64,000 nucleotides of DNA from Deltaproteobacteria bacterium. GTDB taxonomy: Bacteria; Myxococcota_A; UBA796; GCA-2862545. The notes under the pieces are model-generated. The model made no database searches, had not been told where the DNA came from, and was given only the letters and a program-made list of their open reading frames with translations. The number at the start of each line of letters is the position of its first letter. Positions within the stretch are counted from its first letter, which is position 1. Where the stretch lies: positions 62,001 through 126,000 of the forward strand of contig REDI01000043.1 in NCBI GenBank assembly GCA_007693595.1, written 5' to 3'. Shown here piece by piece: positions 5,795-19,293 of this stretch. The position numbers and the translations under genes are program-made.

Positions 5795-5838
5795 CGGTTC
5801 CCTTCACGGAGGGCGGTGGGCTCGTAGAATGACCTTTG

Positions 5839-5860
5839 CATGAAGTAAAAACGCTTCATG
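5839..5860. promoter_or_regulatory. AT-rich inverted repeat upstream of PP2C gene
   Basis: A perfect 7-bp dyad, CATGAAG - 8 nt (TAAAAACG) - CTTCATG, lies 69 nt upstream of the PP2C start at 5929. It is markedly AT-rich against this genome. The geometry suits an operator for a dimeric regulator, or a small hairpin in the leader. No convincing -35/-10 pair was identified around it. Confidence 0.4.
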
Positions 5861-5928
5861 ACCGCATCACGCACCCGTGGAGCGCGCGGATTGGATACAG
5901 TGTCGGCTCGCTGCAAGGAGGAGTCTCA

Positions 5929-7194
5929 GTGCGCATTCGGCAGGCGGTCGCAGGTACTCACGCTGGTGCGGTCCGTCCGTTCAACGAGGACGCCGTCCTC
6001 CGCCTCGGACGGGTGCCGCTGTATGCCATCGCGGATGGCATGGGCGGCGCGGGTGCGGGCGATGTCGCAGCGCAGCTCGCCCTCGACGTGCTCAAGCAGA
6101 ACGCCGTGGGGATCCGCGAGCGCAACCTGGCCTTGGCCGAGTCTCGATCCTCCGAAAACCGCCGCGCCCTGAGCCGCTCCTTCGACACCATGTTCAACCG
6201 GATCAGCCAACGGATCCGCGAAGAAGCGGCGCGGCGTGCGCACAACGTGATGGGGGCCAGCCTGGTCCTCGCGACCGTGGTGCAAGAGTATGCCTATATC
6301 GCTCACATTGGCGACACCCGCGCGTACCTCTGGAGGGGGGGCAGCCTCCAGCGCCTCACCGAAGACCACACCCTCGCGGAGCTCAAGCTGCGTCGCGGCA
6401 AGATCACCCACGCCGAGTACAAGAACCACCCGGAGCGCCACGTTCTCTACCAGTCTCTTGGAGCCAACTTCGAGCTCGACGTCGACATCGCCGAGGTCCG
6501 CCTCCAGCACGACGACATCCTGCTCCTCTGCTCCGATGGCGTCGTCGGCGCCCTCGACGACGAACAGATTGGTCAGGAGCTTCAACCCGACGACCTGAAC
6601 AACAGCCTCAGGTCTTTGCTACGGTCCTGCATCAAGGCGCGGTGTTCCGACAACATCAGCGCGGTGCTCCTCGGCATGGAAGGCGAGGCTATCCCCGCGT
6701 ACGCCGAGGAGTCTCCGACCCTACCCGGCGTGCCTGCTCCCGCGTCCCCCGATCCCGAGCCGGTCGAGGTTCGCGGCGTGATGTTCAGCGCGCTGAGCGC
6801 CGACGATCGCAAGCTGCTCGCCCCCTTCTTGACCGAACAGACCTTCCCCGCCGGGGAGCGCGTGGTGGCCGAAGGCGATCCTAGTCGAACCCTACACGTC
6901 TTGGTCAGCGGCCGCGTGCACCTGACTATCGGCGGAGCACCTCTCGGCGATCTCAGTGAAGGTACGGTTGGTAATCTTTCTTTCAGTCAAGATCGGCTGG
7001 TGCGGGTCCAGGCGGTCGCCAAGGCGCCGACCACCACCCTCGCCCTGACCCGGGATGCCTTCGACGCCCTCCGCGAGGCCCAGCCCGATCTCGCGGCGCG
7101 GGTGGCGTCGGCCGTGGTCGACGAGCGGACCCGCTTGATCGATCGCCTTGCATCAAGGATTGAAGCTGTTTTTTGTGCGGTTCGCGGCGATTGA
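5929..7194 (+). CDS. PP2C-type phosphatase with degenerate cyclic-nucleotide-binding-like domain
   Basis: This is a predicted 421-aa cytoplasmic protein phosphatase of the PPM/PP2C family, which removes phosphate from Ser/Thr. GTG at 5929 is chosen because it follows a strong ribosome binding site (AAGGAGGAG); an in-frame ATG at 5836 lacks one. Metal-binding PP2C motifs are visible: RPFNEDA, ADGMGG (residues 35-40), HIGDTRAYLW, CSDGVVGAL and SDNIS. Residues ~295-405 resemble a CNB/Crp fold (FPAGERVVAEGD, LHVLVSGRVHL), but the phosphate-binding cassette is missing: where FGE(L/I)AL...RxA is expected there is VGNLSFSQDRLVRV. It probably no longer binds cNMP in the standard way. The neighbouring convergent gene encodes the same domain order, with the cassette intact. 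Confidence 0.85.
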   Translation: MRIRQAVAGTHAGAVRPFNEDAVLRLGRVPLYAIADGMGGAGAGDVAAQLALDVLKQNAVGIRERNLALAESRSSENRRALSRSFDTMFNRISQRIREEAARRAHNVMGASLVLATVVQEYAYIAHIGDTRAYLWRGGSLQRLTEDHTLAELKLRRGKITHAEYKNHPERHVLYQSLGANFELDVDIAEVRLQHDDILLLCSDGVVGALDDEQIGQELQPDDLNNSLRSLLRSCIKARCSDNISAVLLGMEGEAIPAYAEESPTLPGVPAPASPDPEPVEVRGVMFSALSADDRKLLAPFLTEQTFPAGERVVAEGDPSRTLHVLVSGRVHLTIGGAPLGDLSEGTVGNLSFSQDRLVRVQAVAKAPTTTLALTRDAFDALREAQPDLAARVASAVVDERTRLIDRLASRIEAVFCAVRGD

Positions 7195-7210: not shown

Positions 7211-8413
7211 TCACGTCTCGCTGAGAAGACGGTTGGTCTCTCGCAAGCGTGAACCCAGCGTGGCTGAGAGCTTCCAGAGGATCTGGTTGCCTAGGGAAGG
7301 CTCCTGCATGCAGAAGGCGCGGAGGTCTCCGCGGGAGATGGTCAGGAGCGAGACATCGTCTTGGGCGACGATAGAGGCGCTGCGCGGGAGCTCATCGACG
7401 AGGGCCAGCTCGCCGAAGTGCTCGCCTGGCCCCAGGGTCGCGACCTCTCGCCCGTCGACCAGTACGGCGACGACGCCGGCGACGACGGTGAACATCGTGT
7501 CCCCGCGATCGCCCTGACGCATGACGGTCTCGCCTGGGGCGGCGTTGCGCTCGCTGACGATCCGGCCCACCCTCAGGCGTGCATGAAAAGGCAGATCGCT
7601 GAACAAGAAGAGCTGCTCCATCGCACGGGCGCGCGCGGCGACCCGCTCCCCCTCGAGCACCGACTCGGTCTCGACGACGATGACGGTGATGTTGTCCTTT
7701 CCGCCTGCATCGAGGGAGGCTTCGATCAGGACATCGGTGGCGTCGTTGACGCTGCCGTGGCCCATCAGCTCCGCCATGTGGTCGTGGCTTACGAGATCGG
7801 AGCAGCCGTCGCTGCACAGCATCAAGCGGTCCCCTGAGACCAGCTCGATGAAGAGCGTGTCGGCTTGAACGGTGGGGTAGAGGCCGACGGCGCGGGTAAT
7901 GACGTTGCGATAGCGACTCGTCTTCGCCTCTTCGGGGGTGATGCTGCCTTGTCGAAGGAGCTGATTGACCATGGAGTGGTCTTCGGTGAGCTGGCGGAGC
8001 TTCCCTTGGCGCAGGAGGTAGGCCCGACTATCGCCTACGTGCACGATAAAGGCGGCCCCCCCACCGACGATCGCCGCGACCAGGGTCGTGGTCATTCCTT
8101 GCCGCCCGGCGTTGGCTGCGGCCTCGTAGACGCGCTTGGACGAGGTGACCGCCGCCTGATCGAGCAAGCTCAACACCGCGTTTCGATGGGCCTGCGAGGG
8201 GGCCTGCCCGTAGGCGTCGAGGGCTTCCTTGAACTTCGAGCCATACTTCTGGAAGGTGTTGACCGTGATGGCGCTCGCGAGCTCCCCCGCGTTGCGCCCC
8301 CCGACCCCGTCGGCGACGACGAAGAGCCCATGCTCCGCCGTGGCGAGGAGGGAGTCTTCGTTGTTCTTTCGCTTTCGACCTACATCGGTACGGGCATGGA
8401 ACCGGATCATCAT
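7211..8413 (-). CDS. PP2C-type phosphatase with intact cyclic-nucleotide-binding domain
   Basis: This is a 400-aa protein, N-terminal PP2C phosphatase (residues ~1-245) then a CNB domain (~270-385). PP2C metal motifs are RKNNEDSL, ADGVGG, HVGDSRAYLL, CSDGCSDLV and DNITVIVVE. The CNB domain has PGETVMRQGDRGD, FGELALVDELPRSA (residues 333-346) and SIVAQDDV, which match the canonical phosphate-binding cassette, so cNMP regulation of the phosphatase is a reasonable inference. The start (ATGATGATC) follows a GGAG site. It converges on a PP2C-CNB paralogue with only 16 nt between the stop codons, suggesting an old inverted duplication or co-selected antagonistic partners. Likely targets are phosphoproteins of Hanks-type kinases. 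Confidence 0.9.
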   Translation of the reverse strand: MMIRFHARTDVGRKRKNNEDSLLATAEHGLFVVADGVGGRNAGELASAITVNTFQKYGSKFKEALDAYGQAPSQAHRNAVLSLLDQAAVTSSKRVYEAAANAGRQGMTTTLVAAIVGGGAAFIVHVGDSRAYLLRQGKLRQLTEDHSMVNQLLRQGSITPEEAKTSRYRNVITRAVGLYPTVQADTLFIELVSGDRLMLCSDGCSDLVSHDHMAELMGHGSVNDATDVLIEASLDAGGKDNITVIVVETESVLEGERVAARARAMEQLFLFSDLPFHARLRVGRIVSERNAAPGETVMRQGDRGDTMFTVVAGVVAVLVDGREVATLGPGEHFGELALVDELPRSASIVAQDDVSLLTISRGDLRAFCMQEPSLGNQILWKLSATLGSRLRETNRLLSET

Positions 8414-8616: not shown

Positions 8617-9798
8617 CTAGCGAACCACCAGCGGCCAGGTCTGGCGGTGCTTGGGCTGGGGTTCGACCTCGTCGCCGTGGGTCTTGCTCAGGGTCAGGAC
8701 CAGCCGGTAGACCCCTCGGGGGGCGTCGACGGGCAAGGCGACCTCGAAAGGGTAGCTCCGCTGACCGCCGGCGCTCAGGCGAGTGTCGCTCGCGACGCGC
8801 CAGGTGGAGTCGTCGGCGATGGTGCGCTGCAGGTCTTGTTGGAGCAGCTCAAGTCGGACGGGGGGCTCGGGCGCGTCGGCGGGGCCCCCCTCGACGGAGA
8901 GCGAGAGCTGCAGGCCCGAGAAGGGCGAGCCGGTGGGGATGGCATGACCGGCTCCGGTGTTCTGAAGGGTGAGTGTGGCGCTAGCGGGGGGCGCCCCGCG
9001 CACGATGGGATCGGGCGGGAGCGAGACCAACGCGCTGAGGGCTTGGGAGAGGGGCAAGGCGACATCGTGGGTCGGGGCCGCCCCCGCCACCGAGGGACGC
9101 ATGTGGCAGTCCTGACAGCTCACGCCGGCCTTGGCCCAACCGCTGCGCTGCCACTCCCCGAAGGTGTCGTACAGAGGTGGGTCGGCGCCCGGCCAGCCGA
9201 ACTGATGGCAGCTCGCGCAGGCCTGAGCGGCGCGGAGCTCGGGGCTGTGCTTGGTGGCGTGCGGCGGCTGGGTATCGGCTCGAGCCGCGACCACGTGTCC
9301 GTCGCGGACGTGGCAGGAGGCACAGGTCACCCCCTCGGCGGCGAGGTTCAGGTCGAAGGCCGGGTTGGAGGGGCCTGCTCCCGCCTGGCCGGCGACGATG
9401 ACCTGTCGGTGCTGCACGTCGAGAGGCAGGTGGCACGAGAGACAGTCGGGACGACCCGAGAAGGTCGCGGCGGCGACGAGGCGCTCGGGCGGCGGGGCCG
9501 CATGGCCTGAGCGCGACCAGCTCCGCACGGCTTCAGCGTGGCAGGCGGCGCAACCCTGGGAGGAGGCGTTCGCCAGGCCCTTGGGGAGCGGGCCGTGGGT
9601 GTAGGGGCGCGGCTGGTCGAAGATCGCCTCAGCCGCCGGGAGTCCGGGGACCCGCTTCGGGGTGTCTGAGGCAGGCTTGGGCTCCGGGTCGGCTGCGGGC
9701 TCTGGGGCCGTGCGCTTGCCGAACAGACCCGCGAAGGCGGACCCCAAGAGCAAGGCGCCTGCGAGGGGGATGAGGAGCAGGGGTCGGGGAAGAGACAT
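8617..9798 (-). CDS. Five-haem c-type cytochrome, membrane-anchored or periplasmic
   Basis: Five CxxCH haem-attachment motifs are visible: CAACH, CLSCH, CASCH, CASCH and CQDCH, all in the first ~230 residues. The C-terminal ~160 residues look like a beta-rich domain without haem sites. The N-terminus (MSLPRPLLLIPLAGALLLGS) is a signal peptide or uncleaved anchor, followed by a Pro/Glu-rich linker, so the haem domain is periplasmic. The gene begins 6 nt after the lytic transglycosylase stop on the same strand and is probably co-transcribed. Multihaem cytochromes of this sort carry electrons or reduce small oxyanions; no catalytic signature such as that of NrfA was identified. Cytochrome maturation could use the hemX/ccsA-like gene at 51.9 kb. 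Confidence 0.8.
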   Translation of the reverse strand: MSLPRPLLLIPLAGALLLGSAFAGLFGKRTAPEPAADPEPKPASDTPKRVPGLPAAEAIFDQPRPYTHGPLPKGLANASSQGCAACHAEAVRSWSRSGHAAPPPERLVAAATFSGRPDCLSCHLPLDVQHRQVIVAGQAGAGPSNPAFDLNLAAEGVTCASCHVRDGHVVAARADTQPPHATKHSPELRAAQACASCHQFGWPGADPPLYDTFGEWQRSGWAKAGVSCQDCHMRPSVAGAAPTHDVALPLSQALSALVSLPPDPIVRGAPPASATLTLQNTGAGHAIPTGSPFSGLQLSLSVEGGPADAPEPPVRLELLQQDLQRTIADDSTWRVASDTRLSAGGQRSYPFEVALPVDAPRGVYRLVLTLSKTHGDEVEPQPKHRQTWPLVVR

Positions 9799-14447: not shown

Positions 14448-14621
14448 TCAGAGCTGGAAGTCGATGACGACTGTGCCGCGATCTTCGATCTCGTCCTCGG
14501 AGGTCTCGGGCTCGCGGGGTTGTTGTCGTGGTTGCTCGATCCGAAGGGGGATCAGGGCACCGCGGCCGCGGTTGTTTTCCTGGTCTTTTCGGATGCGTTC
14601 GATGATGTAGGCGTCGAGCAT
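14448..14621 (-). CDS. Small conserved-looking protein, 57 aa, function unknown
   Basis: The chosen ATG at 14621 follows a GAGGAG ribosome binding site; upstream codons in the same frame look non-coding. The protein starts MLDAYIIERIRKDQENN and ends GTVVIDFQL, with a charged Gln/Pro/Glu-rich middle. I recall similar short proteins with an MLDA(Y/F)IIE start and an IDF/IDL end in myxobacterial genomes, but no function is known to me. No membrane segment or signal is seen. It lies downstream of, and on the same strand as, the Rossmann/DUF2520 gene. Confidence 0.65.
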   Translation of the reverse strand: MLDAYIIERIRKDQENNRGRGALIPLRIEQPRQQPREPETSEDEIEDRGTVVIDFQL

Positions 14622-14818: not shown

Positions 14819-15547
14819 TCACTTCTCGTCACGGCGATGTCGCAATGCGCGTTCAGCGGCCTCGGCGAGGGCTCGATGGAGCTTCGCGATATCGTGAAGG
14901 CCGGCCGCTTCCATGGACGTGACGTGGTCTTCGATCACCTGCTGCTCCCCGCGTGCCATGGGGCCGGTCAGGGCACGGATCGGGTCAGGGGTGGCGTTCC
15001 GTACCGATCGGAGCATGAGGGGAATGAGGGTGTCGGCCGCCCGATCGGCAGGGACGCCGGCTGCGGAGAGGAGCTGGCAGGCTTGCGAGAGGAGGATCGT
15101 CGCGCCGTTGCCTGCGATCACCGCAGCCGCGTGGTAAAGTCGGCGGTCGCCGGGCACATCGATCGGGTTCAAGCCCAGGTGGCTCGCCAGCGCGCGCGCG
15201 GCGCCCTTCGCGTCGGGGTCCCCAGCGATCGCGGCGGGCACGCCCTGGAGCTCAGGGGTCGCGACCTCGGGGCCAGGGAAGGTCATGAGGGGGTGGAGGC
15301 TGCCGGATCGGGGGCGGCCACAGAAGACCTCGAGCCCGGTCGCGCCGGAGGCGTGAAGGAGCACGGGGTCGCGGGGCATGCTCGGGATGACTTCCGCCAG
15401 GGCGAGGTCGGGGATGGTGAGCCAGATCACATCGCACGAAGGGACGGGATCGCCCCGCCCGATCAGCGAAGCGCTCCAGCCTCGCGCACGGATGAGCGGA
15501 GCGATGGTGCGTCCGAGCCTCCCCGGTCCGACGATCGTGATCTGCAT
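14819..15547 (-). CDS. Rossmann-like and DUF2520 domain protein (dehydrogenase-like)
   Basis: A 242-aa protein starting MQITIVGPGRLGRTIAPLI, a dinucleotide-binding GxGxxG loop. The frame continues upstream, but the ATG at 15547 places the Rossmann motif at the N-terminus as in the family. Later motifs are SGSLHPLMTFPGPE, YHAAAVIAGNGATILL and ALTGPMARGEQQVIEDH, which match the Rossmann plus DUF2520 architecture related to prephenate and hydroxyisobutyrate dehydrogenases. The reaction is not established. It is divergent from the enoyl-CoA hydratase gene. Confidence 0.85.
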   Translation of the reverse strand: MQITIVGPGRLGRTIAPLIRARGWSASLIGRGDPVPSCDVIWLTIPDLALAEVIPSMPRDPVLLHASGATGLEVFCGRPRSGSLHPLMTFPGPEVATPELQGVPAAIAGDPDAKGAARALASHLGLNPIDVPGDRRLYHAAAVIAGNGATILLSQACQLLSAAGVPADRAADTLIPLMLRSVRNATPDPIRALTGPMARGEQQVIEDHVTSMEAAGLHDIAKLHRALAEAAERALRHRRDEK

Positions 15548-15653: not shown

Positions 15654-16448
15654 ATGGCTGGAGGGCCTTTGACGCTGATAGAGAAGGAAGACCGCAGCGC
15701 GGGGGTAAGGGTGCTCCGTCTCAACCGCCCCGACCGACGCAACGCCCTCTCCGGCGAGCTGGTCGAGGCGCTCCTCGACGCGCTGTCGCAGGCCGAGGCC
15801 GATCCTGAGGTCCGAGTGATCGTGCTGCATGGCTCGGGGGGTACGTTCTGTGCTGGGGGCGACCTGGCGGGGGGCCTCGGCGGCACCGGGGGCCTCGTAG
15901 CAGCCCATCAGCAGCGAGGGGTCTTCGGCGAGGTCCTCCTCCGACTCATGAAGAGCCCCCTCGTCTCGATCGCGGCGATCGAGGGCGATGCGCTGGGGGG
16001 CGGGCTCGGGCTCGCGGTCGCCTGCGACGTAGGGATCGCGGATCCGGCGGCGCGCTTCGGAACCCCTGAGATCAAGCTCGGGCTCTTCCCGTGGATCATT
16101 CTCGCCGTTCTGCAACGAAACGTAGGCCGTAAGGCCTTGATGGAGCTGGTGCTCACCGGCTCGCGGGTCGACGCCACCCGCGCCTTGGAGCTGGGGTTGA
16201 TCACTCGGATCGCCGAGGCGGGAGGCGCACTCTCCGACGCGCTCGCCTTGGCCGACACCCTCTCAGCCAGGGCGCCGATCGCGCTCTCTCTGGGCAAGCA
16301 GACCTTCCAAGCGGTCGCGGACCAGCCCCTTGAGGATGCGGTGCGGTTCCTCAACACACACCTGACCTTGAACCTGATGACCGAAGACGCCATGGAGGGA
16401 GTGGCTGCCTTCCTTCAACGCAGAGAACCAAGCTGGAAGGGGCGCTGA
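15654..16448 (+). CDS. Enoyl-CoA hydratase/isomerase family protein
   Basis: A 264-aa crotonase-fold enzyme. Motifs are LNRPDRRNALSGELVEAL, GTFCAGGDLAGG (oxyanion-hole loop), AIEGDALGGGLGLAVACD and FGTPEIKLGLFPW. The family hydrates trans-2-enoyl-CoA or does related acyl-CoA chemistry. In GTPEIKLGLFP the second catalytic Glu position of hydratases appears as Glu, but substrate cannot be predicted. ATG at 15654 gives the usual length; TTG at 15669 is an alternative with GGAGG just upstream. It ends 1 nt before the biotin-carboxylase-like gene, so the two form an operon and probably share a pathway, perhaps branched-chain acyl-CoA catabolism. Confidence 0.9.
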   Translation: MAGGPLTLIEKEDRSAGVRVLRLNRPDRRNALSGELVEALLDALSQAEADPEVRVIVLHGSGGTFCAGGDLAGGLGGTGGLVAAHQQRGVFGEVLLRLMKSPLVSIAAIEGDALGGGLGLAVACDVGIADPAARFGTPEIKLGLFPWIILAVLQRNVGRKALMELVLTGSRVDATRALELGLITRIAEAGGALSDALALADTLSARAPIALSLGKQTFQAVADQPLEDAVRFLNTHLTLNLMTEDAMEGVAAFLQRREPSWKGR

Positions 16449-16449
16449 G

Positions 16450-17772
16450 ATGAATCGGATCCTACTCGCGGGCCGGGGCGAGCTCACCCGACGGCTAATC
16501 AAGGCTTTCCGGAGCCGGGGCATCGAGACCTGTGCGGTCTTCAGCGAGCCCGAGGTCGAGGCGCCTTGGGTCGACGAGGCAGACTATGCGGTCTACCTCA
16601 ACGGCGCGACGCTCGACGAGACCTACCTGCACAGCCAGCGGTTGATCAGCGCGGCGCACGACTCGGGCGCCTCGGTCCTTCACCCTGGCTACTGCTTCCT
16701 CGCCGAGAGGGCGGACTTCATCGCCGAGGCCAACGCGGCGAACCTGCGTGTGATCGCCCCCGATCGTGCGGCCCTCGAGCGGATCGGGGATCGGTTCTTG
16801 GTACGGAAGGCGGCGGAACAGCTCGGGATCCCCGTCATCCCCGCCTCCGCGCCGCTGCCCGACGGCGACGACGGCATGGACGTCGCGGGGCAAATAGGGC
16901 TTCCTCTCTACGTCAAGGCGGTCGCGGGGGGGGTTGTGCTTCGCGTCGACACCTACGAGGCTCTGCCGGCGGCGGTTCGCCAGGCCCGAGCGCGAGCGGC
17001 GCTGGTGACGGGGAGCCCAGCCGTCTACCTCTCGGCGAGGGTGGGCGAGGTACGCCAGATCGGCACCACCGTCGTCCGCGAGGGGGGCGACCGCGCCTAC
17101 GTGCTTGGCCACCACGACAAGAGCGTGCAGGTGGGCTTTCGGACCTGGATCGAGGAGCTGGGCCCCGAGATCGTCCCGACCGAGCTCGCAGAACGCATGG
17201 GTCAAGAAGCGCGTCGGCTCATCGAGGGGCTCCAGATCGACGGCATCGTCCGGGTACGATGGGCCGTCAATCATGCCGGCGGGCACTGGCTTCTGGGGGT
17301 CTCGGGTCGGCTCACCACGGGCTACTCCCTCACCGAAGAGGTCTTCGGGATCGATCTGATCGACACCCAGATCCGGCTGTCTCTGGGCGAGCCCCTAGGC
17401 TGGGAAGGTGCCGAGACCGAGCCCCCGATGCACGGGATCCAGCTCCGCTTGCTCCATGTCGATCCCGCCGACGGCCACTCTCGTCCCGCGGGCGTGCTCG
17501 AGGTGCTCGAGCTGCCTCGTGGGGTGAGGGCGTCCGTGGGGGTCGGGATCGGTCAGGCGTGTACCGATCAGACCGAGCCCCTGCTCGCGACGCTGATCTT
17601 CACCGGGCCCACCCGTCAGGCCACCCTCGTCAAGGCGCGCGCCGCCCTCGAGCAGGTGCGCATCGAGGGGGTGGTGCACAACCTCTCGGTGCTCAAGGCG
17701 GTGCTCGGCGACCCTGACTTCTGGGAGGGCCACTACAACGTCGACGTGGTCGATCCTTATCTGGGCGCCTAG
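16450..17772 (+). CDS. Biotin carboxylase-like protein with active site lost (pseudoenzyme)
   Basis: The 440-aa sequence has the whole ATP-grasp layout of acyl-CoA carboxylase biotin carboxylase subunits: N-terminal lobe with HPGYCFLAERADF (78-90), central ATP-grasp lobe and C-terminal lobe. Key residues are changed. The Gly-rich ATP loop is KAVAGGVVLRV (from K156) instead of KAxxGGGGxGM. The ENxRxQVEH core aligns with LLGVSGRLTTGYSLTE (281-296), leaving R287 but losing the metal ligands Glu and Asn (G283, S285) and the catalytic Glu (G291). The bicarbonate-associated Arg seems kept (R333). Carboxylation of biotin is therefore unlikely. It is translationally close to an enoyl-CoA hydratase. 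A structural or acyl-CoA-sensing role is only a guess. Confidence 0.75.
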   Translation: MNRILLAGRGELTRRLIKAFRSRGIETCAVFSEPEVEAPWVDEADYAVYLNGATLDETYLHSQRLISAAHDSGASVLHPGYCFLAERADFIAEANAANLRVIAPDRAALERIGDRFLVRKAAEQLGIPVIPASAPLPDGDDGMDVAGQIGLPLYVKAVAGGVVLRVDTYEALPAAVRQARARAALVTGSPAVYLSARVGEVRQIGTTVVREGGDRAYVLGHHDKSVQVGFRTWIEELGPEIVPTELAERMGQEARRLIEGLQIDGIVRVRWAVNHAGGHWLLGVSGRLTTGYSLTEEVFGIDLIDTQIRLSLGEPLGWEGAETEPPMHGIQLRLLHVDPADGHSRPAGVLEVLELPRGVRASVGVGIGQACTDQTEPLLATLIFTGPTRQATLVKARAALEQVRIEGVVHNLSVLKAVLGDPDFWEGHYNVDVVDPYLGA

Positions 17773-17929: not shown

Positions 17930-18316
17930 ATGGCCGGATATCGGCCCAAGCGTGTCGCCGAGATGATTCACCGCGAGCTCGCGGTGCGCCTCCCCCAGTC
18001 GCTCAAGGATCCGGGGCTCGGCTTCGTCAGCATCACCCACGTCGAGGTCACGCGCGATCTCGGAGTGGCCCGGATCTCGTGGTCGCCCCTCGGAGGCGGG
18101 GAGCCCTCCCCCGAGCTTGTTCAAGCGGTCGACGAGGCCTCTCGGGCCTTGCGTGGACCGATCGGGCGTGCCCTCCGCATGAGGCACGCCCCCGAGCTGC
18201 GCTTCCTCCTCGACGGCCACACCGACGCGGCCGTGCGCATGACCACGCTGCTCAACGAGATCCGGCAGGATCTCGACGCGCGGGACCAAACCGACGAGCC
18301 GGAAGGTGAAGAGTGA
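17930..18316 (+). CDS. rbfA: Ribosome-binding factor A
   Basis: A 128-aa KH-fold protein that helps mature the 30S subunit by acting on the 5' part of 16S rRNA. It begins MAGYRPKRVAEMIHRELA and carries GLGFVSITHVEVTRDLGVA and LRMRHAPELRFLLD, typical of RbfA. ATG at 17930 follows AAGGAG; an in-frame upstream ATG at 17900 would add ten residues without a good site. The stop overlaps the truB start by 4 nt, the usual rbfA-truB coupling. Confidence 0.95.
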   Translation: MAGYRPKRVAEMIHRELAVRLPQSLKDPGLGFVSITHVEVTRDLGVARISWSPLGGGEPSPELVQAVDEASRALRGPIGRALRMRHAPELRFLLDGHTDAAVRMTTLLNEIRQDLDARDQTDEPEGEE

Positions 18317-19293
18317 GCCTCAGTCCATCCTTCTTGGTCATCGACAAGCCACCGGGCATCACCTCGCACGATGTGGTCGATGTGCTACGGGCGGTCACCG
18401 GGGTTCGAAAGGTGGGTCACACCGGAACTCTCGACCCCTTCGCCACCGGCGTCCTGCCCATGGCCCTCGGCCCTGCGACCCGCATGATCCAGTTCCTCGA
18501 CGAGTCGGTGAAGGTCTACGACGCCACCATCCAGCTCGGTGCCGCCACCGACACCGGGGATCCTACTGGCGAGGTCGTGCAGGAGCGCTCCTTGCCCACC
18601 GCGAGCCGCGATGAGGTCGAAGCCCTGCTCCAGACCTTCGTCGGCGACCGCATGCAGGTTCCCCCTGCTTTTAGCGCGGTTAAGCATAAGGGCAAGCCCC
18701 TCTATCACTACGCCCGCCAAGGGATCGACGTCCAGGTCGAGGCCCGACCCATCACGATCTCGGCGATGGAGCTTCTGTCTTATGACAAGTCGCAGCTCCG
18801 CGTGGTGATCACCTGTAGCCGCGGCACCTATGCCCGAGTGCTCGCACACGAGATCGCCGAAGCGCTGGGTAGCGCGGGGCACCTCACCGCGCTGTGCAGG
18901 AGGCGGAGTGGGCCCTTCTTCCTCGACGATGCCATCAGCATGGCCAGCTTGGCTCAGATCGTCTCCGCGGATCCGGGGGCTCCCTGGGATGCGGTCCTGC
19001 TCAAGCGGAAGAAGGGTGAGGATCGCGTGCCGTGGAACCCTCGTTCCCAGGTGGTCGAAGCGCTGGCGGCGCGAGCCTTCTCGCCGATGCGAGCGCTGGC
19101 TCACCTTCCCCTGTGCGATCTTCGCCCTGTCGACGCGGACCGGGTGCTCAAGGGGGCAGGGCCACCGGCGGCGCCCGATGGACTCGCGGTCGGGGATCGT
19201 TACCTCTTCGCGCTCGGGGACCAGGTCTTGGGCATCGGCGAGCGAGGGCCGGCAGGTCCTCAGGTTGTGCGCACCTTTCGCAAGGCCCGTTAG
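18313..19293 (+). CDS. truB: tRNA pseudouridine-55 synthase
   Basis: A 326-aa enzyme that isomerises U55 in the T-loop of tRNA. The catalytic Asp is in GHTGTLDPFATGVLP (residues ~35-50). Other family motifs are LVIDKPPGITSHDVV, KVYDATIQLGAATDTGD, PAFSAVKHKGKPLY and CSRGTYARVLAHEIA. The start is GTG, overlapping rbfA by 4 nt. The C-terminal region is long enough to hold a PUA-like domain, though weakly conserved. Confidence 0.96.
   Translation: MSLSPSFLVIDKPPGITSHDVVDVLRAVTGVRKVGHTGTLDPFATGVLPMALGPATRMIQFLDESVKVYDATIQLGAATDTGDPTGEVVQERSLPTASRDEVEALLQTFVGDRMQVPPAFSAVKHKGKPLYHYARQGIDVQVEARPITISAMELLSYDKSQLRVVITCSRGTYARVLAHEIAEALGSAGHLTALCRRRSGPFFLDDAISMASLAQIVSADPGAPWDAVLLKRKKGEDRVPWNPRSQVVEALAARAFSPMRALAHLPLCDLRPVDADRVLKGAGPPAAPDGLAVGDRYLFALGDQVLGIGERGPAGPQVVRTFRKAR

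Follow-up and report, generated by a model that had tools for sequence, protein, structure and literature searches.

What could a biotin carboxylase be kept for once its catalytic residues are gone? The question is raised by a locus in the window (the whole 64,000-nucleotide stretch of DNA analysed here), for which an original prediction, made from the sequence alone, described a full-length biotin carboxylase (BC)-like protein without its ATP-binding and catalytic residues, coupled to an enoyl-CoA hydratase. BC is strongly conserved, usually essential, and an antibiotic target. The observation on the two genes is real: a crotonase/enoyl-CoA hydratase-like gene (ECH) and a gene for a pseudo-biotin carboxylase (pseudo-BC) are separated by 1 nt, as claimed, and their junction was read directly as ...CGC TGA G ATG (Table 1).

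Fold and active-site residues of pseudo-BC

A Pfam scan placed PF00289, PF02786, and PF02785 above cut-off in pseudo-BC, i.e., the three-domain BC architecture is present, and the closest relatives with solved structures are BC subunits (top E-value ~5e-55). AlphaFold2 predicted a BC fold (mean pLDDT 90.4, pTM 0.88), and a Foldseek search with this predicted structure returned BC subunits as the top PDB matches (TM 0.79–0.93), with the BC mutants E288K, E296A, R16E, E23R, and F363A among the entry titles of the structure matches. At 440 aa, with all three BC domains and a confidently predicted fold, the protein is thus as complete as had been proposed. It resembles the BC subunits or domains of known enzymes (AccC, AccA3 of acyl-CoA carboxylases, the alpha subunits of PCC and MCC, and urea and pyruvate carboxylases) in its three domains and predicted fold (TM ≤0.93), and, at ~25–32% identity, it has kept the HPG motif and some N-domain dimer-face residues. 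Unlike these known BCs, it no longer has the Gly loop or the residues that bind metal and bicarbonate and act as base, its locus includes no biotin carrier (BCCP) or carboxyltransferase companion, and it falls on a separate branch of the tree.

Residues were numbered after the AccC protein of E. coli K-12, extracted from its genome and aligned to pseudo-BC. Relative to this reference, pseudo-BC retains HPGY (H79–Y82), K159, R292, and R338, while K116 is Arg, the Gly loop (G163–R167) is shortened, E201 is Ser, H209 is Gln, H236 is Phe, K238 is Thr, E276 is Arg, E288 is Gly, N290 is Ser, and Q294-V295-E296 reads T-T-G. Both halves of the predicted residue pattern were therefore recovered, namely the persistence of HPGY and the Arg residues and the loss of the ATP Gly loop, the ExN motif, and the catalytic Glu. 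Following the E. coli enzyme, we take E276 and E288 to be the metal (Mg/ATP)-binding glutamates, with N290 part of the ExN motif, K116 and K159 the phosphate-binding lysines of the ATP site, K238 the bicarbonate lysine, E296 the catalytic base, and R16, R19, R366, and F363 residues of the BC dimer face. The alignment shows that a protein without the Mg/ATP glutamates, bicarbonate Lys, base Glu, and Gly loop would be unable to use the normal BC mechanism.

Table 1 Features of the pseudo-BC locus, with positions in the window.
Feature	Position	Strand	Evidence or remark
Conserved small ORF, 57 aa, MLDAYIIERIRK...VIDFQL	14448..14621	-	Recurrent neighbour
Rossmann + DUF2520 protein (PF10728)	14819..15547	-	Divergent neighbour at most pseudo-BC loci examined
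Crotonase/enoyl-CoA hydratase-like (ECH), 264 aa	15654..16448	+	PF00378, E = 2.4e-52
Pseudo-biotin carboxylase (pseudo-BC), 440 aa	16450..17772	+	Pfam, AlphaFold2 and Foldseek; catalytic residues absent
HPGYC, retained N-domain motif (E. coli H79-G83)	16681..16695	+	Dead family: H 33/35, P 34/35, G 34/35
IGDRFLV, Arg at E. coli K116	16783..16803	+	Arg in 35/35 dead, 0/16 live
VKAVAGG, K159 retained, Gly-rich ATP loop shortened	16912..16932	+	Alignment to AccC
HDKSVQVGFRTWIEE, H236 = Phe, bicarbonate Lys K238 = Thr	17113..17157	+	Alignment to AccC
VRVRWAV, Mg/ATP glutamate E276 = Arg	17248..17268	+	Alignment to AccC
GVSGRLTTGY replacing E-x-N-x-R-x-Q-V-E; E288, N290, Q294, V295, E296 lost, R292 retained	17296..17325	+	
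rbfA	17930..18316	+	Conserved synteny; first of the downstream rbfA-truB-rpsO-pnp block
truB	18313..19293	+	Conserved synteny

Distribution, ancestry, and selection of the dead family

Members were gathered across the order through the DUF2520 neighbour and through short BC matches, which yielded 38 full-length dead members in five families of one order (13 in f1, 14 in f2, seven in f4, three in f5, and one in f6), and none in the two genomes of f3. Within f1, the family of the window genome, pseudo-BC was found in 13 of 21 genomes, with a clear gap in score from the live BCs (571 vs 340 bits). The catalytic set was absent from all 38 members. Detailed residue counts were made in one alignment of 35 dead sequences and 16 live BCs, and the further three dead members, read separately, also lacked K238 and E296. 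In the dead sequences, K116 was Arg and K238, E288, N290, and E296 were lost in 35/35, whereas all 16 live BCs retained these five residues; E276 was lost in 32/35, the three exceptions all belonging to f2. The dead family has also acquired residues of its own, D71 and R115 in every sequence and W318 and W425 in 91% of the 35, and E26 is present in 35/35, this position being Glu in half of the live BCs.

In a tree built with a quick method without bootstrap, the 35 dead sequences lay on one side of a branch with an SH-aLRT support of 100, after L024, a wrongly extracted live sequence whose very long branch split the dead group, had been left out. The lost residues thus define a clade, the point that the original prediction proposed to check with a tree of homologues, and this clade would have a single origin provided that the BC tree is rooted among live enzymes, which is expected. 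When 379 genomes of the phylum were searched with a dead-motif profile, dead members of this order came out as the top matches and no dead member was found outside the order, the outside-order matches that were read being live, as were the lower-scoring matches inside the order (G025, G034, G036, and G058). Within the genomes searched, these sequence comparisons show a dead BC family that appears restricted to a single order of uncultured bacteria.

Could these proteins still be biotin carboxylases that rely on substitute residues? The whole fold, together with the persistence of K159, HPGY, R292, and R338 in the window protein, would fit this idea, which is nevertheless barely credible given that no member retains E288, the bicarbonate Lys, or the base Glu and nearly all have lost E276, that the ATP loop is degraded, and that the contig carries no carboxyltransferase gene. 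The six carboxyltransferase matches in the genome all lie on other contigs, and no BCCP was recognised among the recurrent neighbours of pseudo-BC, in agreement with the predicted lack of carboxyltransferase and biotin carrier genes alongside. Encoding BCCP and carboxyltransferase beside BC is common, although not universal.

A decaying pseudogene, hitchhiking with neighbouring essential genes, would be another way to lose a catalytic site, and both the large divergence between families and the loss of a domain in four members could be read in this light. However, frames are intact in all full-length members, without a single stop codon in the 35 extracted frames, and dN/dS of close pairs is well below 1 (mostly 0.05–0.3, with one pair at 0.37), which would mislead only if close pairs were unrepresentative. 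Between the window genome and G001, pseudo-BC has evolved at a rate similar to truB (66% identity and dN/dS of 0.30 vs 65% and 0.24, respectively). In addition, identical replacements are fixed through whole families and the same replacements recur across the clade, rather than the scattered, random loss typical of decay. On these grounds, i.e., dN/dS, intact frames, and replacements in common, we rule out a decaying gene, a reading to which we attach very little probability. Since the gene has been kept intact under selection despite the catalytic loss, another job is most likely. Taken together, catalytic loss common to a clade and purifying selection support the interpretation of pseudo-BC as a probable pseudoenzyme with its fold kept whole, as first proposed.

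A new ATP-grasp-like function had been suggested as one such job. This is disfavoured, as is an ATP-grasp ligase with a new substrate, by the erosion of ATP-binding elements in all members and by lid deletions. Specifically, most of the ATP-grasp lid is gone from four shortened f2 members (G043, G026, G056, and G045), which keep the N-domain; this BC N-domain was the sole Pfam match in the two of them that were scanned, and the AlphaFold2 model of one shortened member is weak (pLDDT 61). The eroded ATP site throughout, together with these deletions, makes an ATP-dependent function unlikely for the family overall.

The crotonase and other neighbours

The locus is the same for most full-length dead members, with DUF2520 as the adjacent gene. 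The DUF2520 protein, encoded by 62 of the 71 genomes in the class and the most constant neighbour of pseudo-BC, is rarely mentioned in the literature searched, and the 57-aa ORF, with its conserved ends, recurs by DUF2520 throughout the order and also in further families of the class. In f2, AstE/AspA-like genes (catalytic domain PF24827) flank pseudo-BC at most loci, e.g., L100:5364-6296 and L100:8605-9528.

The window ECH retains the PE glutamate, while the first Glu of two-Glu hydratases is Gly, so that it does not carry both catalytic glutamates of that group. It resembles crotonases with a single catalytic Glu, sharing the ECH_1 Pfam domain, the AGGDL and GGG segments, and the conserved PE glutamate, and it differs from two-Glu hydratases in the Gly found at the first-Glu position of every locus copy covering the segment, with small variants around it.

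Of the 13 f1 loci, 11 have ECH next to pseudo-BC (those of G001 and G005 lack it); the two genes run in the same direction and either overlap or almost abut, and one f1 copy is cut by a contig end. Two f5 loci also place ECH beside pseudo-BC, and at three loci of f4 (L126, L131, and L143) a BKACE gene (beta-keto acid cleavage enzyme, PF05853) lies between the two; a BKACE gene was also noted at L137:9853-10731. This arrangement would fit a role for pseudo-BC as the dedicated partner of the crotonase next to it, within a complex for acyl-CoA catabolism. We consider this unlikely, because the two genes part company in both directions. No ECH was present at the f2 pseudo-BC loci examined, and eight genomes with pseudo-BC (G001, G005, G028, G048, G042, G037, G047, and G049) have no ECH ortholog anywhere, the best matches being ≤42%. 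Conversely, five f1 genomes (G003, G015, G004, G016, and G006) carry ECH at the locus without pseudo-BC, and in G064, from another family of the class, an ECH-BKACE pair lies beside DUF2520 with no BC. These reciprocal losses rule out an obligate ECH–BC pair. The coupling to a hydratase that was originally predicted therefore stands as adjacency in f1, and falls as a requirement, since ECH is dispensable in 2 of 13 f1 loci and in all examined f2 loci and occurs alone in five f1 genomes. From this distribution and from the pair in G064, the neighbourhood may be what is left of a former gene cluster for acyl-CoA catabolism.

Candidate roles of a non-catalytic BC fold

Our preferred, if tentative, reading is that of a non-catalytic BC-fold protein that may work as a scaffold or regulator toward a carboxylase, close to the regulator or decoy subunit of an acyl-CoA carboxylase that was a candidate role in the original prediction. 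Pseudo-BC would act by binding rather than catalysis, with its BC fold and N-domain making it a scaffold or a regulatory subunit. Its most likely target would be a live biotin-dependent carboxylase of the cell, i.e., a live BC, BCCP, or carboxyltransferase, which pseudo-BC could engage by forming mixed dimers or by blocking the docking site of the biotin carrier. On this view, the adjacent crotonase would be no obligate partner but a long-standing neighbour in the same orientation, perhaps left from a cluster for acyl-CoA catabolism. Possible partners exist in the window genome, which encodes at least four live BCs in addition to the six carboxyltransferase matches. By eye, the presence of pseudo-BC in f1 genomes showed no obvious relation to how many live BCs they encode. 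Among the dimer-face residues, R16 is present in 28/35 dead members and R19 in 24/35, R366 is found in 5/35 dead vs 16/16 live sequences, and most of the dead family has a deletion at the F363 position. With R366 mostly lost and position 363 mostly missing, BC-type dimerisation is not assured.

A more specific version, which we regard as a lesser possibility, is that the dead paralogue may be a built-in inhibitory or assembly subunit in mixed complexes with live BC, by analogy the BC counterpart of plant BADC. The BADC proteins of plant plastids, the nearest concept found, are described as BCCP look-alikes that carry no biotin and damp acetyl-CoA carboxylase (e.g., PMC11926652, PMC7712654), and they offer a precedent in which the dead paralogue of one component of acetyl-CoA carboxylase has become its regulator. 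Unlike pseudo-BC, BADC derives from the carrier protein rather than from BC, and the two are unrelated in sequence and lineage.

Alternatively, the remodelled pocket may bind a small anionic metabolite (acyl-CoA, carboxylate, or nucleotide), in which case pseudo-BC would be a sensor or would catalyse a new reaction free of Mg-ATP. In f1, the replacement of E276 by Arg (12/13), along with R292 (11/13) and R338 (12/13), creates an Arg-rich pocket with an RLTTGY-type motif, and most members of f4 and f6 have gained Arg at positions 238 and 290. However, f2 is without those arginines (position 292 is Gly or Ala, and 338 is Ala, Leu, Val, or Ser), which argues against a pocket common to all members, and much of the pocket is lost in the four shortened members. 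On balance, a metabolite-binding role is doubtful for the family, and because pocket residues vary by family, the role of these proteins may not be uniform.

If pseudo-BC modulates a live carboxylase, as in the scaffold or regulator reading, it would represent a new control of bacterial fatty-acid and acyl-CoA carboxylation. Narrow open-access literature searches found no earlier description of a catalytically dead, selected BC clade. The family also marks genes that are likely misnamed as biotin carboxylase by automatic annotation.

Elsewhere in the window, two convergent genes (5836-7194, + strand, and 7211-8413, - strand) each code for a phosphatase of the PP2C type that also has a cyclic-nucleotide-binding domain, and a 393-aa protein with weak matches to multihaem cytochrome c is encoded at 8617-9798 (- strand), adjoining a lytic transglycosylase gene.
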